Positions 20,925 to 51,379 of a stretch of 64,000 nucleotides of DNA are shown one piece after another. A program made the position numbers and the translations under genes. Position 1 is the stretch's first letter, and each line of letters begins with the position of its first letter. Origin of the DNA: Mucilaginibacter lacusdianchii (GTDB lineage Bacteria; Bacteroidota; Bacteroidia; Sphingobacteriales; Sphingobacteriaceae); NCBI RefSeq assembly GCF_009770985.1, contig NZ_WSRW01000001.1, positions 930,001 through 994,000 on the forward strand, in the 5' to 3' direction. The notes under the pieces are model-generated. The model worked only from the letters and a program-made list of their open reading frames with translations. It searched no databases and had not been told where the DNA came from.

Positions 20925-21494
20925 TTAATATCTTTCTGCTATCATCAAATAAGGCTCTTTAAAAGTCAATTTAAAAAACCCATCATTGGTAGTTGAATAT
21001 TGATTATGCGTTAACGGTGCCAGACCTTCTTCCAACAACTCAATAGATGGCCCTAGTATTTCAATTAATTCACCAGCTGGCTTCCATTTGCTGAAACCCG
21101 ACATGATTGGATATATTTTTTGCTGATTACAAAAAACCACCCAATCAATTTTACCAACATAAGCTTGATACGTTTTAAAATCAAACCCACTGGTAACGAT
21201 ATTTACAGCTGGATAACCCTGCTCTATTAAAAATTCAAGTGCCGCATTCAAAAGCGGCTTACCTGCACTCTTAAGAGTTTTCACATCAGATTGTGCAATA
21301 CTAAAGCCTTCATCACCTATTATGTAATCTACCTTAATATCATAAATGGCCAACTGTTCGGCCATGGCAGAAACGGCTATCACTGTTGGGCTCCATTCCA
21401 GCAATTGCCCTAGCTCTTCGTCTGTAAATTGATCCAGGCCTAATATTAATAAAGCCGGTTCCTGCTTTTCGCGAACAATATGATGTGACGACAT
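20925..21494 (-). CDS. Thiamine-pyrophosphokinase-like protein with atypical motif
   Basis: A 189-residue cytoplasmic protein whose first part looks like the catalytic fold of thiamine pyrophosphokinase: an ALLILGLDQF strand, then VIAVSAMAEQLAIYDIKVDYIIGDEGF. In true TPK the last segment is GDfDS followed by a TD-x-E motif. Here it is GDEGFS (60-65) and the Asp-rich follow-on is missing (GKPLLNAALEFL). Either a divergent TPK or an inactive or repurposed relative is possible, as is a distant MptE/DUF115-like pyrophosphokinase. It lies 3.3 kb from the thiamine-uptake operon, which itself lacks a TPK. Confidence 0.6.
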   Translation of the reverse strand: MSSHHIVREKQEPALLILGLDQFTDEELGQLLEWSPTVIAVSAMAEQLAIYDIKVDYIIGDEGFSIAQSDVKTLKSAGKPLLNAALEFLIEQGYPAVNIVTSGFDFKTYQAYVGKIDWVVFCNQQKIYPIMSGFSKWKPAGELIEILGPSIELLEEGLAPLTHNQYSTTNDGFFKLTFKEPYLMIAERY

Positions 21495-22475: not shown

Positions 22476-24134
22476 TTACTTTTTCAGAGCTTCCTGTACT
22501 ACTTTACCTATACAGCCACTTGGCATTTGAATGTGCAATAAGCCAGCTAAAGTGGCCGAAATATCCGTCATATGCGTATCGCGGTTTAGGCTACCGTGCT
22601 GTATGCCCCATCCCATCAATACAAATGGAATGTGCGTATCGTACGGCGAACTTACCCCATGCGAAGCGCCGGTTGCCGAACGGCCTGCATACCATCCGGG
22701 CTGTAGTATTACTTGAATTTCGCCGCTACGATCGGCATTGTAACCGTTAATAATACGCTCGCGCAATTCGGCAGGCACGCTGGCCAGTTGCACTTTTTGC
22801 ATATCCACGGCATATAATACACCGAGTTGCTGCGTCAGCCAGTCTATGCAATCCTTTTTGATGGCCTCTTTATTAAGATTTTTCTGCGCAATGGCTTTAT
22901 TGTTCAAATTTATCTGATAGCTATCGATGCCTCTGATTAATGGGCTGATTTTGTATTTATCTTCCAATAAATTATTTAAAGCTTTAGTAGCTGCACCTGA
23001 ATCCCAAAGACCGGACGGAATATTATGACTTTTGGCAAAAGTTGCATTATGAGCAGCACCATGATCGGCTGTTAAAAAAGCAGTGTAATTACCTTTACCT
23101 ACTTTAGCATCCAGATATGAAAAGAAGGCTGCCAGATCTTTATCCAAGCGCAGGTACACATCTTCTGCTTCAACGGAATTAGGGCCAAACTGATGACCTA
23201 CATAATCGGTTGATGAAAGGCTAACCGCCAGAAAATCAGTAACGGGCCCCTTGCCTAACTGTTCGGCATCTAAAGCTGTTTTGGCAAATTCCAGTGTTAA
23301 TGTATTACCGAAAGGCGTAGCCCGAATGGCACCAAAATCACTACCTTTTATAGTTGGCAAATCATGCGGAAACACCGGTGCTTTTTCACCTCTTGATGAT
23401 GTTTCGGCCGGAGAATTATCCGGTGCGCTTTGCACATAGCTTTCAATTGGATATAACGTATTCCAAGGCTGGCTCAAATACTTATTTACCAACCCTTGAT
23501 CGTTAAACTGTTTTACCCAAGCAGGCAAATCACCCATGTAGTAGGTACTGGTAATCCAACGGCCACTGGCATCGTCAAACCAGTAAGCACCATTAGGTGT
23601 ATGGCCGGCAGGCAAAATACTGCCCCGGTCTTTTAAAGCAATACCAATTACCTTTGAACGGAAATTGGTTGCCAGTTTCAATTCATCTGTAATAGTGCTG
23701 GCCAGTAAATTACGTGGTGACATTTGTCCGGCTTTTGACGGACTTCCTACCGTTTGTACGGTGGTATCTTCGGTACAATAGGTATACCGGCCGGTTGCCT
23801 GTATAAAGAATGAATTAGCCGCAATACCATGAATGGCCGGTACCGAGCCGGTGTAAATACAACTATGGCCGGGCGCGGTTTCGGTAGGCAGGTAATCGAT
23901 ATGGGTATTTTCACAAGTAAAACCCTCGTTTAACATCCGTTTAAAACCGCCGGTTTGGTAACGGTCGTAAAAACGATACAAATAATCCCAACGCATTTGG
24001 TCAACCACAATACCCACCACCAGTTTAGGACGAGGCAAGGTTGTAGCATTTGTTACGGGAGTTTTAGCTTTTTGTGCTGATGAAAGCATTGGCATTACTG
24101 CCATGCCTATTAATACCCAGTTCTTAAATTTCAT
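22476..24134 (-). CDS. PafA-type alkaline phosphatase
   Basis: A 552-residue secreted phosphatase of the alkaline phosphatase superfamily, similar to Flavobacterium/Elizabethkingia PafA. A signal peptide (1-20) is followed by metal ligand D45 (VGIVVDQMRWDYLYR) and a Thr nucleophile region in TETAPGHSCIYTGS (84-97). The K-x-R pair that marks PafA-like monoesterases is in ALKDRGSILPAGH (K168, R170). A distal metal site is in TADHGAAHN. It releases phosphate from organic esters in the periplasm. It lies on the same strand as the thiamine-uptake operon but 690 bp away, across a repeat element. A role in dephosphorylating thiamine phosphates before uptake is possible but unsupported. Confidence 0.9.
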   Translation of the reverse strand: MKFKNWVLIGMAVMPMLSSAQKAKTPVTNATTLPRPKLVVGIVVDQMRWDYLYRFYDRYQTGGFKRMLNEGFTCENTHIDYLPTETAPGHSCIYTGSVPAIHGIAANSFFIQATGRYTYCTEDTTVQTVGSPSKAGQMSPRNLLASTITDELKLATNFRSKVIGIALKDRGSILPAGHTPNGAYWFDDASGRWITSTYYMGDLPAWVKQFNDQGLVNKYLSQPWNTLYPIESYVQSAPDNSPAETSSRGEKAPVFPHDLPTIKGSDFGAIRATPFGNTLTLEFAKTALDAEQLGKGPVTDFLAVSLSSTDYVGHQFGPNSVEAEDVYLRLDKDLAAFFSYLDAKVGKGNYTAFLTADHGAAHNATFAKSHNIPSGLWDSGAATKALNNLLEDKYKISPLIRGIDSYQINLNNKAIAQKNLNKEAIKKDCIDWLTQQLGVLYAVDMQKVQLASVPAELRERIINGYNADRSGEIQVILQPGWYAGRSATGASHGVSSPYDTHIPFVLMGWGIQHGSLNRDTHMTDISATLAGLLHIQMPSGCIGKVVQEALKK

Positions 24135-24824: not shown

Positions 24825-25931
24825 CTATTCACTAAACGTCAACAAAGCATGCTGACCAGCCGTATGCAAATCCCGCCATACCTGGTTAATCTCCGTATCG
24901 GGCGAAGCAGCTTGTAAGCCACAGTATGGATATAAAGTATCGACACTTTCGCGTGCAATCTGGGCTAACAAACGACTAGCGCGGCTAACAGCTTGTAGCT
25001 GCACATCTTCAATATGATGACTTGTTTCCATGGCCTGCCAGGAAGCGTCAAGTGCCTGATAAAAATTATCGCGCATGGCCTGTATATTCTCTCTTACCCC
25101 TTGCAGTGTATTCAGTAACACTTCGCGGTGTACATCGGTTAAACGCTTCTGTTTTAATTTCTCATGAAATATAGGCTCGCATAAATCAGCAAAATGTATA
25201 GCCATCCCCGAAAGGTTAGCAGCCAGGGTAGCTTCGGCCAGTTGCAGGAATGGATAGCGGTATAAAGGTCCGTCAATTAAGGTATCTTCTGCATTGATTT
25301 TAAAACTTCGGTTGGCACTTACCCCAGCATCGTGCAGTGTAAAAGCATGACTACCGGTACCCATCATACCTATATATTTCCAAGCAGGTACCAAGCTAGC
25401 AGCGTCTTTATCAATCACAAACGATAATATCATTGGCTTACCGCTGGAATCCATTACTGGTTTATTATTATCAATAATCTGACAGCTGGCCGTAAAGTGG
25501 GTTGCATGCCGAACGCCGCTGGCATATTTCCAGCTACCATTAAGCACATAACCGTCATCAGTTATAGTAGCCGTACCCGAATCAGCACCACTACCTGCCA
25601 GGCAAACCCTAGGGTCGGCAAATATCGATTGAGCTGCTTCGGGCGCTATAAAGCCGCCAAACCAGCCTGCTCCGGCACATAAGGTAACTACCCAGCCCAG
25701 GCTGCCATCAGCCCAAGCCAATGCTTCTTCCAAGCGAACTAGATCTGGCAAAGGCATTTCCACACCACCATAAGCGGCAGGTATTAATAGCTTAAACCAT
25801 TGCTGCTCATAAATAAGCTCAAGCTGTGCAGATTGCAATAATCCTGCTTGCTCGGCAGCAAAAGCATTTTTGCGGATAACAGTTACCCATTCAGGCTGCA
25901 ATAGAACAGAAGGATGAGGTATGGCAAGCAT
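24825..25931 (-). CDS. Acyl-CoA-dehydrogenase-fold flavoprotein (monooxygenase-like) in the thiamine operon
   Basis: A 368-residue protein with the three-domain acyl-CoA dehydrogenase fold: a helical N-terminal part (LLIPAAYGGVEMPLPDLVR), a middle beta domain (YVLNGSWKYASGVRHATHF), and a C-terminal helical domain ending in NQVWRDLHTAGQHALL. The GSWKYASG and WRD-x-H-x6-H features resemble the HsaA/DszC group of flavin monooxygenases more than true dehydrogenases, but this is a motif-level judgement. The gene starts one base after the pnuT stop, so it is tightly co-transcribed under the TPP riboswitch. Oxidative salvage or modification of a thiamine-related compound is the natural guess, with no direct support. 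No terminator is seen before repeat copy 1. Confidence 0.8.
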   Translation of the reverse strand: MLAIPHPSVLLQPEWVTVIRKNAFAAEQAGLLQSAQLELIYEQQWFKLLIPAAYGGVEMPLPDLVRLEEALAWADGSLGWVVTLCAGAGWFGGFIAPEAAQSIFADPRVCLAGSGADSGTATITDDGYVLNGSWKYASGVRHATHFTASCQIIDNNKPVMDSSGKPMILSFVIDKDAASLVPAWKYIGMMGTGSHAFTLHDAGVSANRSFKINAEDTLIDGPLYRYPFLQLAEATLAANLSGMAIHFADLCEPIFHEKLKQKRLTDVHREVLLNTLQGVRENIQAMRDNFYQALDASWQAMETSHHIEDVQLQAVSRASRLLAQIARESVDTLYPYCGLQAASPDTEINQVWRDLHTAGQHALLTFSE

Positions 25932-25932
25932 A

Positions 25933-26553
25933 TTAGTTCAATTGAGGTTTTAACTGGCTTTGCCGGTATAGCTTACGCCAGTCAAAATAGCCAAAAATGG
26001 CCACTATAAATAAAAACGCAGTTAGCAGCGCAAATAGCGGCAAGTGCTTATGGAACAACAGCGGAATAGCAAATAGATTGGAAACGTTAAGCACCACCCA
26101 GTTTTCTATCCGCCTGCGTGCCAGTAACCAGGTACCTGCCCAAGCCGATGACGACACCCAGGCATCCCAAACCGGCACGGTTGAATCGGTAAAATACTTA
26201 AGCAGTACAAAAATTACTCCCCAGCCAACAAATGCAATCAGTATGGTAATAACCCACTCCTGCTTTGTGGCATAGGCAATTTGCACTGGTGCTGCATTTT
26301 TACGGCGTACCCATAACATCCAGCCATAAATACTCATGCCTACATAGTAGGCGTTTAGGGCCGAATCGGCATATAGGCCCGCCTTAAGTAGCAGAAATAT
26401 GGTGATAGCCGAGCCGGCGATACCTGCAGGGTACAACCATACCTTGTTTTTACGGGCCAGCAATACTTCGGACATGCCAAAAAATACGGCCAACCACTCC
26501 AAAGGAGTAGTTTGCCGTATTTGCGTTATTAATAAATCAAGCCACTGCTGCAT
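25933..26553 (-). CDS. pnuT: PnuT-type thiamine transporter (PnuC family)
   Basis: A 206-residue inner-membrane protein with seven or eight hydrophobic segments. PnuC-family features are LEWLAVFFGMSEVLLARKN near the N terminus and NAYYVGMSIYGWMLWVRRK, with the conserved Trp/Tyr lining of the pore. PnuC proteins take up nicotinamide riboside; the PnuT branch takes up thiamine. The thiamine assignment comes from position: it lies 6 bp downstream of an outer-membrane receptor that is preceded by a TPP riboswitch. Confidence 0.9.
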   Translation of the reverse strand: MQQWLDLLITQIRQTTPLEWLAVFFGMSEVLLARKNKVWLYPAGIAGSAITIFLLLKAGLYADSALNAYYVGMSIYGWMLWVRRKNAAPVQIAYATKQEWVITILIAFVGWGVIFVLLKYFTDSTVPVWDAWVSSSAWAGTWLLARRRIENWVVLNVSNLFAIPLLFHKHLPLFALLTAFLFIVAIFGYFDWRKLYRQSQLKPQLN

Positions 26554-26559
26554 AACTTA

Positions 26560-29052
26560 TTAAAATCTCAGGTTAACAGAAGCCAGGAAGTTGCGGGTAG
26601 CCTGCGGAAAATAATAATTGTAATTTACCAAGTAGCCACTTTCTACATCCGGGTAAGTAGCACCGTTGGCTTCATACTTTTTGCTGAAGATGTTATTTAC
26701 CAATAAAGTAACACCAATGTTTTTAACCCCTTTAATGGCAAAATTGTAATTTAGGCGAACATCGTTCACAAAGTACGATTTCAGGTAACGGTTAACAGCA
26801 TAAGGGTTAGCCGCTACATCCGGCGAGGTAGTTACACCAGTTGGGTTGATATTGGATGTATTATCCAGGTACTGCTTGCTTACATACTTACTTAAAAACG
26901 CAATACTGCCATTTTTGACCGGCGAAAAAGTAATCTCACTACCTGCAATCAACGATGGCGAAAAAGCCAAATCTGATTTTGCCAGGGTTTGCACCACAGA
27001 CGGCAGCGGATCATAATTCTCATCTGATGCATTTAACGTCTGAACAAAGTTCTTTACCTTATTGGTACTTAAAGTAGCATTGGCACCCCACGTTAATGCA
27101 CGGGTAATACGCACGCGCCCTTCGGCTTCTATACCGGCACGGTAGCTGTCTTTTACATTAGTACGCACTTGTGAGCCTACATCATTCAACTGCCCGGTTA
27201 GTACCAGCTGGTTTTTATAAATCATGTAAAAGCCATTGATGCTTCCATTAAAGTTAGCCTGATTGATGCGGTAGCCCAACTCGATATCTTTCAGATTTTC
27301 TGATTTAGGCAGCGGCTGACCGGCCACACGGTCGGTAAAGTCATTACGATTAGGCTCGCGGTTACCAATAGCAAATGAGGCATATACATTATTGTTAGCG
27401 TCAATCTCGTAAGTAATACCGGCTTTGGGATTAAAGAAATTAAAGGTTGCCTGATTGTTAATCTGCTGCATCTTGTTCTCCAAGCCGAAAATATTGTAGT
27501 ACACATGGCGGTACTGCAAATCGCCATACAATAACAGTTTACCCAACTGATACTCGGCACGGCTATAAATGTTAAAGTCGTTCTTTTTAGCGTTGTTGCG
27601 GTAGTACTCGTAGTTCGGAATGATGCCGGCACTTTGCTCAGTGTATAATACATTACCAAAATGGTCGCCATCGTATTTATTATATGCACCACCAATAATC
27701 AGGTTTAGTTTGCTGGGGTGATATTTTAGGGAGTACGTTACGCCATAAAAATCATTATCCAGCCAGCGGCGACGAGCCAGATTAGTATTCTTAATGGTGG
27801 TACCGCCAATAGTTACCGGCTTTATACCATAAGTATTCTGCAAATCATCGTCTTCACGATATTCTTCATAATAGCCAGAACCTTTGGTATAATGCAAGGC
27901 TCCGCTGAAAGACAGCACACGGGAAATAGTCTGGTCATACAACAACTGGTAATGCTTCTGTGTATAATCATCTACCTGGTCTCGGTAACGGTCGCCATTC
28001 GGCATAATACCCAGTTCATTGTAACGACGAGGGTTTTCGCCAATTGACGCTGCATAGTCCGGATCGCCGATGATATTATCCGGAACACCGTTCCATGCTT
28101 GATAAGTACGCTCGTGCCCGGCAAATACATTGGCACGAATCACATTGGTTTTGCCGTAGTAAGCACCGCTTAGAAAATACGATTGCAAATTGGATGAAGC
28201 CATATCAATGTACCCGTCTGACGCAATGCGCGACAAGCGGCCATCAAACGTAAACTTACCGCCCAACAAACCTGTACCTAATTGTACCGTATTTTTTACC
28301 GTACCATATGAACCGGCTGAATTGTTCAACTCCGCGTAAGCACTATCCCGGCGGGTGGTAGTAGATATATTGATGCTACCCCCAAAAGCACCGGCGCCAT
28401 TGGTAGATGTGCCCACACCACGTTGTATCTGTATATTATCTACTGATGAAGCAAAATCGGGCATATCCACAAAGAATGAACCTTGGCTTTCGGCATCATT
28501 ATACGGAATACCGTTGATGGTTACGTTGATACGCGTACCGTCCGATCCACGGATGCGGATACCGGTATAACCCACGCCCGCGCCGGCATCAGATGTAGTT
28601 ACCACTGAAGGAGTTTGGTTCAGTAAAAGCGGCAAATCCTGACCCAGATTATTTTTTTGAATGTCCTTACGGCGCAGATTAGTAAAGGCTGTTGGCGAGT
28701 TATTAGACGCGCGGGTGGCACTTACCGTAACTTCTTCTGCTTGTAATGTACTGGCAGTAAGGCTCAGATTAATAGTTTGATTGCTGCTGAGGCTGAATGC
28801 CTTTTGTGCGTTTTGATAACCGATGTAGCTTACTTTTAATACATAGCTACCGGCTTTTACATTGTTAAACTGATAGGTACCGCTATTAGTGGTAACCGTA
28901 CTGGGCGACACCTGTAACCCCTGTAAAATAACAGTAGTACCGGGTAAAGGCTGACCTGTTTGCTGATCAACAATTTTTCCAGATACGGAGAACTGGGCCG
29001 CTGCCCAAAATGGCAACAGCAGGGCAACAAGTGCCGAAAGTAAATTTTTCAA
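26560..29052 (-). CDS. TonB-dependent outer-membrane receptor, probable thiamine transporter
   Basis: An 830-residue receptor with a signal peptide (1-19), a carboxypeptidase-like regulatory domain (about 22-105), a TonB plug (from EEVTVSATRASNNSPTAF; GAGVGYTGIRIRGSDGTRIN) and a C-terminal barrel. It is not a SusC protein. It is the first gene after the TPP riboswitch and 6 bp ahead of pnuT. This matches the omr1-pnuT arrangement described for Bacteroidota by comparative genomics. It should import thiamine or thiamine phosphates across the outer membrane, repressed when cellular TPP is high. Confidence 0.92.
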   Translation of the reverse strand: MKNLLSALVALLLPFWAAAQFSVSGKIVDQQTGQPLPGTTVILQGLQVSPSTVTTNSGTYQFNNVKAGSYVLKVSYIGYQNAQKAFSLSSNQTINLSLTASTLQAEEVTVSATRASNNSPTAFTNLRRKDIQKNNLGQDLPLLLNQTPSVVTTSDAGAGVGYTGIRIRGSDGTRINVTINGIPYNDAESQGSFFVDMPDFASSVDNIQIQRGVGTSTNGAGAFGGSINISTTTRRDSAYAELNNSAGSYGTVKNTVQLGTGLLGGKFTFDGRLSRIASDGYIDMASSNLQSYFLSGAYYGKTNVIRANVFAGHERTYQAWNGVPDNIIGDPDYAASIGENPRRYNELGIMPNGDRYRDQVDDYTQKHYQLLYDQTISRVLSFSGALHYTKGSGYYEEYREDDDLQNTYGIKPVTIGGTTIKNTNLARRRWLDNDFYGVTYSLKYHPSKLNLIIGGAYNKYDGDHFGNVLYTEQSAGIIPNYEYYRNNAKKNDFNIYSRAEYQLGKLLLYGDLQYRHVYYNIFGLENKMQQINNQATFNFFNPKAGITYEIDANNNVYASFAIGNREPNRNDFTDRVAGQPLPKSENLKDIELGYRINQANFNGSINGFYMIYKNQLVLTGQLNDVGSQVRTNVKDSYRAGIEAEGRVRITRALTWGANATLSTNKVKNFVQTLNASDENYDPLPSVVQTLAKSDLAFSPSLIAGSEITFSPVKNGSIAFLSKYVSKQYLDNTSNINPTGVTTSPDVAANPYAVNRYLKSYFVNDVRLNYNFAIKGVKNIGVTLLVNNIFSKKYEANGATYPDVESGYLVNYNYYFPQATRNFLASVNLRF

Positions 29053-29130
29053 AATGATGAATAGAACATTATGTTAAACCATCTGCCCGCTAAGGGTGTA
29101 AATTGCGTGCAGTACACTTAACTTATTACC

Positions 29131-29302
29131 TCTGTCCCTACGCCGGCATTACCCGGATCAGGTGTAGGAGTGTGCTGTGAGTGGCGGGTTGATCGTTGTG
29201 AATAATAATTTCACATAACCGACAACAGATAACTAACAACACTTCTCCATGGGTATGATCTCAGCCTGTCTTTCAGTTTGATTGCTCAAAGCAAGGCACC
29301 CC
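29131..29302 (-). promoter_or_regulatory. TPP (THI-element) riboswitch
   Basis: On the minus strand the conserved aptamer parts are all present and in order: GGGGTGCC, then GGCTGAGATCATACCC (P2/J2-4), then ACCTGATCCGGGTAATGCCG and CGTAGGGA (P4/P5 and closing strand). The P3 arm is greatly extended, about 80 nt with an inner TGTGAA/TTCACA hairpin. The aptamer ends 78 nt before the receptor ATG. I see no clear terminator in that gap, so control may be on translation. Confidence 0.95.
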
Positions 29303-29457
29303 TTAAGAAATTATGCAGCAAAAGTAGAATATGATTTCGGATTTCGAACTTTTAATTTCGATTTTTTACAAAGTTGATTATACCGAAGCAGATTTTGATA
29401 TGGCTCATTCATGACAAGGGAACTAAGCCGCATTTTTTTTAACAAAAGTTAAATTCG

Positions 29458-34556: not shown

Positions 34557-35186
34557 ATGTCACTAAAACAATCGCTAGAGTGGCGTTACGCTACCAAAAA
34601 ATTTGATGCTAACAAAAAGCTAAGCAATGAGCAGTTAAACGAATTACTGGAAACTGTACGTTTATCCCCATCGTCATACGGCTTACAACATTATGAAATA
34701 TTGGTTGTAGAAAATGCCGCTGTTCGCGAGCAATTACGCGAAGCCGCTTACGGGCAAACTCAGTTGACTGATGCTTCACAAATAATTGTGTTTGCTGCCG
34801 AAACAGAAATCAACGAAGCGTATGTAGAAAAATATGTTGATGAAGTAGCCCGCGTGCGTGGTGTAGAGCGTGAACAACTACGTCCGTTTGAAGAAAGTAT
34901 GTTGGGTGCTGTTGGTCGTTACACTGAGGATCAAAAGATTGCCTGGGCACATAAACAAGCTTACATTGCCTTAGGCGTTTTAATGAGTGCTGCATCTGAA
35001 ATGGGCATTGACAACTGCCCGATGGAAGGCTTTAACGCTGGTAAGTTTGATGAAATATTAGGCTTGAAAGAAAAAGGTTTAACTACTTCAGTAATTGCTT
35101 GTATAGGTTTCCGTGCAGAAGATGATGCTTATGCTCATTTTGCTAAAGTGCGTAAGCCAGCCGATGACTTATTTATCCGCATATAA
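34557..35186 (+). CDS. NAD(P)H-dependent nitroreductase-family oxidoreductase
   Basis: A 209-residue FMN flavoprotein of the NfsB-like group. The opening EWRYATKKFDANKKLS and LSPSSYGLQHYEILVV form the FMN-binding start. QAYIALGVLMSAASEMGIDNCPMEGF and a VIACIGFRAEDD segment complete the fold. It reduces nitro-aromatics or quinones using NAD(P)H. It is a single gene with a perfect palindrome in front and a terminator behind, consistent with a small inducible unit. Confidence 0.92.
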   Translation: MSLKQSLEWRYATKKFDANKKLSNEQLNELLETVRLSPSSYGLQHYEILVVENAAVREQLREAAYGQTQLTDASQIIVFAAETEINEAYVEKYVDEVARVRGVEREQLRPFEESMLGAVGRYTEDQKIAWAHKQAYIALGVLMSAASEMGIDNCPMEGFNAGKFDEILGLKEKGLTTSVIACIGFRAEDDAYAHFAKVRKPADDLFIRI

Positions 35187-50782: not shown

Positions 50783-51379
50783 TTAAGGGATAAGCCAAGT
50801 GCCTTGCCAAGCGCCGCTAGGCTGTAAGGTAAACTGTGCCCGCCGGTTACCTGTAGGGCTTAGTTTTAGATATTCCATTTGTTTTACATCAATAACTACT
50901 ACCGCAAAATTTTCATAACCGTCTGGTGTATCACCATTACTTTGTGGGCTTGCTAAATATGACAGGCCGTCGTCTGGCTGTTCAATAGCTGTTGAAGGTG
51001 CCGGTTTTGCTAAATAGGACTTCTGCCCTTTGTAGCCCTCAACTTTCCAATTATGCTGTGCTACTTCATCTCGGTAATGAATGGTAGCCACGCCTTTGAA
51101 AATGAGCTGTATTTGGGTAGCCGGATTATAACCGCAAACAGTTAAACGATTATGACTACTTATTTGACTAACCTTTGGCGAACGGTAATCAGTGAAAAAC
51201 ACAAGTTGTTGCTCGTTAAAACCTATTTTTCTGAGCACTACAGTGTAAGCGTTGACATATTCATCTGCAATATGCGAGATAGTTATATTACGAAATGCTG
51301 AGTTGATGTGACCATTGCCATTAGTTAACCCATTCCAGCTATTTGCCAGTATCTGATACATACTTTTATCCATTAGCAT
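50783..51379 (-). CDS. Pyridoxamine 5'-phosphate oxidase-like flavin-binding protein
   Basis: A 198-residue split-barrel protein. The segments ISHIADEYVNAYTVVLRKIG, LVFFTDYRSPKVSQI and LTVCGYNPATQIQLIFKGVA match the FMN-binding core of the PNPOx-like superfamily, and the C-terminal half (WKVEGYKGQKSYLAKP) the dimerisation part. The conserved PdxH substrate residues are not evident, so it is probably not PdxH. The substrate is unknown. Confidence 0.75.
   Translation of the reverse strand: MLMDKSMYQILANSWNGLTNGNGHINSAFRNITISHIADEYVNAYTVVLRKIGFNEQQLVFFTDYRSPKVSQISSHNRLTVCGYNPATQIQLIFKGVATIHYRDEVAQHNWKVEGYKGQKSYLAKPAPSTAIEQPDDGLSYLASPQSNGDTPDGYENFAVVVIDVKQMEYLKLSPTGNRRAQFTLQPSGAWQGTWLIP

Follow-up and report, generated by a model that had tools for sequence, protein, structure and literature searches.

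A class D flavin monooxygenase paired with a PnuT-like transporter under TPP-riboswitch control in Mucilaginibacter lacusdianchii: a candidate step in thiamine salvage

What does a flavoprotein contribute to an operon that is controlled by a TPP riboswitch? This question arises from a 64,000-nucleotide stretch of the Mucilaginibacter lacusdianchii genome (G000:C1:930001-994000, hereafter the window), in which a TPP riboswitch, a TonB-dependent receptor, a PnuT-family transporter and a flavoprotein of the class D flavin monooxygenases follow one another on the minus strand. The riboswitch aptamer (THI element; 29117-29313, minus strand) matched model positions 1-105 of RF00059 in cmscan with 43.4 bits and an E-value of 3.9e-7, and it was also recovered by a genome-wide search. 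Rfam requires 54.3 bits as its gathering score, more than this element attains, so a default scan misses it; the two long inserts in the aptamer are the likely reason. The core helices aligned along the full model, the E-value is significant, and the position is conserved in relatives.

The receptor (26560-29052, minus strand, TTG start) contains a carboxypeptidase-regulatory domain (PF13715), a plug (PF07715) and a beta-barrel (PF00593). A TPP riboswitch lies upstream of it in relatives too, and it is probably of the omr1/OMthi type, for thiamine or thiamine phosphates. The transporter (25933-26553, minus strand; PF04973, E 1e-49) is labeled as PnuC family by NCBIfam, with nothing narrower. 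It is a member of the PnuC/PnuT family by sequence and lies under TPP-riboswitch control, and from this regulation its predicted cargo is thiamine. The gaps are exactly 6 bp from the receptor to pnuT and 1 bp from pnuT to the flavoprotein gene (24825-25931, minus strand), and a search of the latter junction for minus-strand promoter-like or terminator-like sites found none. The initial annotation had placed the three genes under a single TPP riboswitch on account of these short gaps, and the RF00059 match and the exact distances bear it out. Further downstream, a phosphatase/phosphodiesterase gene of the alkaline phosphatase superfamily (22476-24134, minus strand; PF01663, E 3.7e-50) is syntenic with the thiamine block and adjoins the receptor or the monooxygenase in many relatives. 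With a gap of 690 bp, it is not clearly part of the operon; its product might remove phosphate from TPP or TMP ahead of PnuT.

We assigned the flavoprotein to a class by profile, sequence and predicted structure. It matched PF08028, an HsaA-like NCBIfam model and, in phmmer, Rv3094c (7e-27), as expected for the oxygenase component of a two-component type, class D flavin-dependent monooxygenase. The nearest database records were from Mucilaginibacter (54-74% identity), and the closest NCBIfam models were HsaA and p-hydroxyphenylacetate (HPA) 3-hydroxylase, whose equivalog cut-offs it does not reach (110.8 against 450 and 70.5 against 650, respectively). The nearest PDB entries were Rv3094c, HsaA, XiaF and HPA hydroxylase C2. 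The AlphaFold model (mean pLDDT 91.7) gave VIA-align Z scores of 43 with Rv3094c and ~40-42 with the other three, as opposed to 32-34 with acyl-CoA dehydrogenases, and Foldseek E-values of ~1e-20 with class D enzymes. By sequence and predicted fold, the protein is thus a class D flavin monooxygenase with an acyl-CoA-dehydrogenase-type fold, as its early description as a monooxygenase-like flavoprotein had implied (PF08028; Z 40-43). An acyl-CoA dehydrogenase was rejected, since profile, sequence and fold are all nearer to the monooxygenases.

The flavin-site residues, listed after Rv3094c (PMC9904262), are W80, G113, Y136, W184, T357 and H361, with conservation of 0.95-1.0 among 41 PnuT-linked proteins; all but Y136 were called invariant. 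H361 aligns with H368 of HsaA and with H351 of Rv3094c, the proposed proton donor to the hydroperoxyflavin (PMC9904262). Several pocket positions are also invariant among the 41 homologues, yet differ from those in Rv3094c and HsaA. These two sets of residues suggest an active enzyme that may have a substrate of its own. No flavin reductase gene is present in the operon, and no flavin-reductase domain was found among the 10 window proteins scanned; the nearest candidates in the window are a nitroreductase (34557-35186) and a PNPOx-like protein (50783-51379). Separately, six homologues in other genomes, mostly of one genus, carry one in-frame stop codon each, which reflects either decay or sequencing error.

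The pairing with PnuT is widely conserved. In a genome-contig scan, PnuT adjoined the monooxygenase on the same strand within 350 bp in 29/34 loci; adjacency was also found in all 29 top relatives (29/29) and in 16/20 loci of other genera, three counts with shared species that should not be read as independent. The median gap between the two genes is 44 bp. The pair spans Mucilaginibacter, several further Sphingobacteriaceae genera, Chitinophagaceae (three loci) and two more families of the class (four loci). Most linked loci have a TPP riboswitch ahead of the pair; a motif regular expression missed several that the covariance model caught, and at six linked loci no TPP riboswitch was detected. 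In a tree of 58 homologues, 41 PnuT-linked and 11 unlinked proteins fell into one clade, from which the six distant remaining proteins were separated (SH-aLRT 99). Since the linked proteins share a single clade, the linkage looks ancestral, with later losses. Furthermore, six relatives without the monooxygenase have a riboswitch-receptor locus that also lacks PnuT, and the two genes therefore behave as one cassette at this locus. A chance neighborhood was rejected because the linkage spans many genera. The initial annotation had made a thiamine role depend on such linkage in relatives and on an uninterrupted junction behind pnuT; the pair indeed recurs across many genera, usually with a TPP riboswitch, and the junction holds no minus-strand site of either kind. 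We regard the link of the operon with thiamine as strong and very probably real. As a separate observation, two homologues in Pseudomonadota MAGs (44% identity) lie beside katG without PnuT, representing either a separate context or a question of binning.

The initial annotation had further proposed that the flavoprotein holds the place of a thiamine pyrophosphokinase (TPK). A PF04263 search with positive controls recognized a TPK in 194 of the 395 Bacteroidota sampled and in none of 251 Sphingobacteriaceae genomes, and a recognizable copy is missing from this family irrespective of whether the monooxygenase is present. Among the sampled genomes with a PnuT-linked monooxygenase, 1/14 (G455) has a TPK (Fisher p 0.0016, uncorrected for kinship). 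A PF04263 search was rejected as sole proof of the absence of TPK homologues, because a degenerate copy, which that profile fails to detect, was found by start motif, alignment and fold. This open reading frame (20925-21494, minus strand) lies 3.3 kb downstream of the monooxygenase operon and was recognized by alignment with Flavobacterium-type TPKs, an AlphaFold model and Foldseek. It begins with MSSHHIVREKQEPALL, resembling intact TPKs of that type, whereas loss or deletion has removed the catalytic and thiamine-binding motifs GDFD, DKTD, ATGxRxDH and YRTGSSN from each of the aligned Sphingobacteriaceae copies. Its AlphaFold model has a pLDDT of 85; the top 28 Foldseek matches were all TPKs or members of the TPK family, the best being the B. 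thetaiotaomicron TPK 2omk (E 1.2e-9), and strongly significant matches were to TPKs only. According to the model and the alignment, the protein is a homologue with a TPK fold but without the catalytic motifs, conserved through the Sphingobacteriaceae.

At two related loci (L226 and L227), the riboswitch is followed in turn by receptor, PnuT, monooxygenase, PF01663 phosphatase, ThiE-like gene, degenerate TPK and GNAT. In Mucilaginibacter and Pedobacter-like genomes, the TPP-regulated receptor has a conserved neighbor, a ThiE-like paralogue with altered ND/metal-site residues (L189:4820-5446, L193:3059-3691, L226:2237-2866), which is absent from the genome studied here.

With the degenerate TPK located further downstream, there was no simple exchange at the tnr3 position; rather, the TPK decayed, and the monooxygenase stands beside PnuT. 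Class D flavin monooxygenases do not transfer phosphate, and G455 carries both enzymes, so a functional replacement of TPK by the flavoprotein was rejected. Of the proposal made for this position, it thus holds that the third gene encodes a flavoprotein and that no recognizable TPK is present, the latter refined by the degenerate homologue; the substitution of one function for the other does not hold. In G455, which has ThiC as well as TPK, the pair is for this reason accessory.

Riboswitches of the TPP class usually activate their genes at low TPP. Low TPP would release the riboswitch and allow expression of the operon, thiamine or one of its derivatives would reach the periplasm through the receptor, and PnuT would move the compound inward. 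The monooxygenase may oxidize a PnuT-imported thiamine derivative, as opposed to plain thiamine, to intact thiamine or TMP, which would finally become TPP via ThiL. A canonical ThiL (317 bits) is indeed encoded in this genome. In the two Chitinophagaceae-like genomes G339 and G512, the pair and ThiL are present, while canonical ThiE, ThiC and TPK are absent; the cassette product, if directed to TPP, should therefore be intact thiamine or TMP. We give the oxidative conversion of an imported derivative into usable thiamine a probability of about 0.4. The upstream riboswitch, the adjacency of the pair, the single clade, the invariant residues, the joint absence and G339/G512 count in its favor, while G455 with its TPK, the 11 unlinked close homologues, the loci without a detectable riboswitch and the missing operon-borne flavin reductase count against it. 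Salvage of an imported thiamine derivative, suggested already by the initial annotation, remains the best interpretation; its substrate, namely the imported compound, its reaction and product, the specificity of transport, and the presence and nature of a thiamine-to-TMP step are what we infer.

Recognizable TPK was lost across the Sphingobacteriaceae while ThiL and TPP riboswitches were kept, which exposes a missing enzyme. We propose, a shade more tentatively, the combined scenario of an O2-dependent flavoenzyme that regenerates intact thiamine from a modified, imported form of the vitamin, in a lineage that has no recognized thiamine-to-TMP enzyme and in which TPK decayed to a non-catalytic homologue. 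A study that includes Pedobacter Leaf132 (PMC9666465) calls this bacterium an auxotroph, and its strains were grown on glucose with thiamine supplied for B1; this is no more than a hint at the use of free thiamine by such bacteria.

The same operon and pairing evidence would also fit a protective function, in which PnuT admits toxic thiamine analogues and the co-expressed monooxygenase oxidizes and disarms them. The class D enzyme Rv3094c oxidizes a drug-like thioamide (PMC9904262), and protection would account both for the optional occurrence of the pair and for its coexistence with TPK in G455. However, an old, strongly conserved family with specific invariant pocket residues is easier to reconcile with a single physiological substrate than with a range of xenobiotics, and we consider protection unlikely, although it is the alternative that survives best.

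The thiamine enzymes of this genome bear on whether thiamine, or a degradation product of it, is instead split to pyrimidine and thiazole that are re-used via ThiD, ThiM and ThiE. ThiE-like genes do occur close to the block in many relatives. However, neither ThiC nor a convincing, true ThiD was found in this genome, and its ThiE is represented by one divergent homologue with changes in the QxR and metal-site residues and by no canonical copy; G339 and G512 likewise lack a canonical ThiE. Salvage of HMP or HET is accordingly disfavored by the absence of ThiD, ThiC and canonical ThiE, and re-use of fragments appears improbable.

A second TPP riboswitch (72 bits) was observed elsewhere in the genome, at the head of an operon (L114:2330-4969; G000:C1:574329-576968, plus strand) encoding a class I methyltransferase, a divergent ThiL-like/HypE-like protein and a divergent ThiE-like protein. 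The operon recurs in three other genomes (G195, G111 and G563), where a gene for a Trm112-like protein follows.

Retention of such odd thiamine-related genes, including the degenerate TPK, would suit an enzyme that turns thiamine into something other than TPP, such as a modified or signaling compound, with the riboswitch sensing demand indirectly. However, the second operon was found in only 4 genomes among those examined, and induction at low TPP points to supply, not consumption; a non-TPP product seems a poor candidate. Equally doubtful is the absence of any thiamine role, with the flavoprotein just sitting in the operon or serving a different pathway with a transporter of the same PnuT family: some close homologues do lie away from PnuT and at several linked loci no TPP riboswitch could be detected, but adjacency in the three counts over several families, mostly with riboswitches, and the joint absence of both genes in six relatives argue against it.

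Returning to the oxidative salvage of an imported derivative, the locus likely represents an undescribed step in B1 use, and restoration of thiamine by a flavoenzyme, if true, would be an undescribed salvage step in Bacteroidota. B1 salvage influences which soil, plant and water bacteria coexist, and the conserved pairing of an oxygenase with a thiamine-type transporter hints at a natural B1 form not yet mapped. We found no account of a flavin monooxygenase tied to PnuT or thiamine salvage in the searchable literature, which left most subscription journals and RegPrecise outside.

A receptor-PnuT-TPK operon under TPP control is already known as the omr1/OMthi-pnuT-tnr3 thiamine uptake operon of Bacteroidetes, as in B. 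thetaiotaomicron (BT2390, BT2396-2397; PMC5613172); the monooxygenase partner appears to be new. Both operons combine a TPP riboswitch, a TonB-dependent receptor and PnuT. However, the third gene encodes TPK there and a flavin monooxygenase here, with the degenerate TPK further downstream. Among enzymes, HsaA and HPA hydroxylase C2, class D aromatic hydroxylases, share the fold and class with the flavoprotein, and the C-terminal histidine corresponds to that of HsaA, whereas the flavoprotein scores far under their NCBIfam cut-offs and has no steroid or phenol catabolic context. Rv3094c, the ethionamide S-oxygenase of M. tuberculosis (PDB 7F70/7F72/7F74), is alike in fold (Z 43), flavin-site residues and catalytic histidine, despite an identity of 22%; Y136 here corresponds to F136 in Rv3094c. 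In the pocket, W115 of Rv3094c is replaced by G115 and the gate residue F221 by A232. Furthermore, the genomic partner of the flavoprotein here is PnuT, as opposed to an adjacent flavin reductase.
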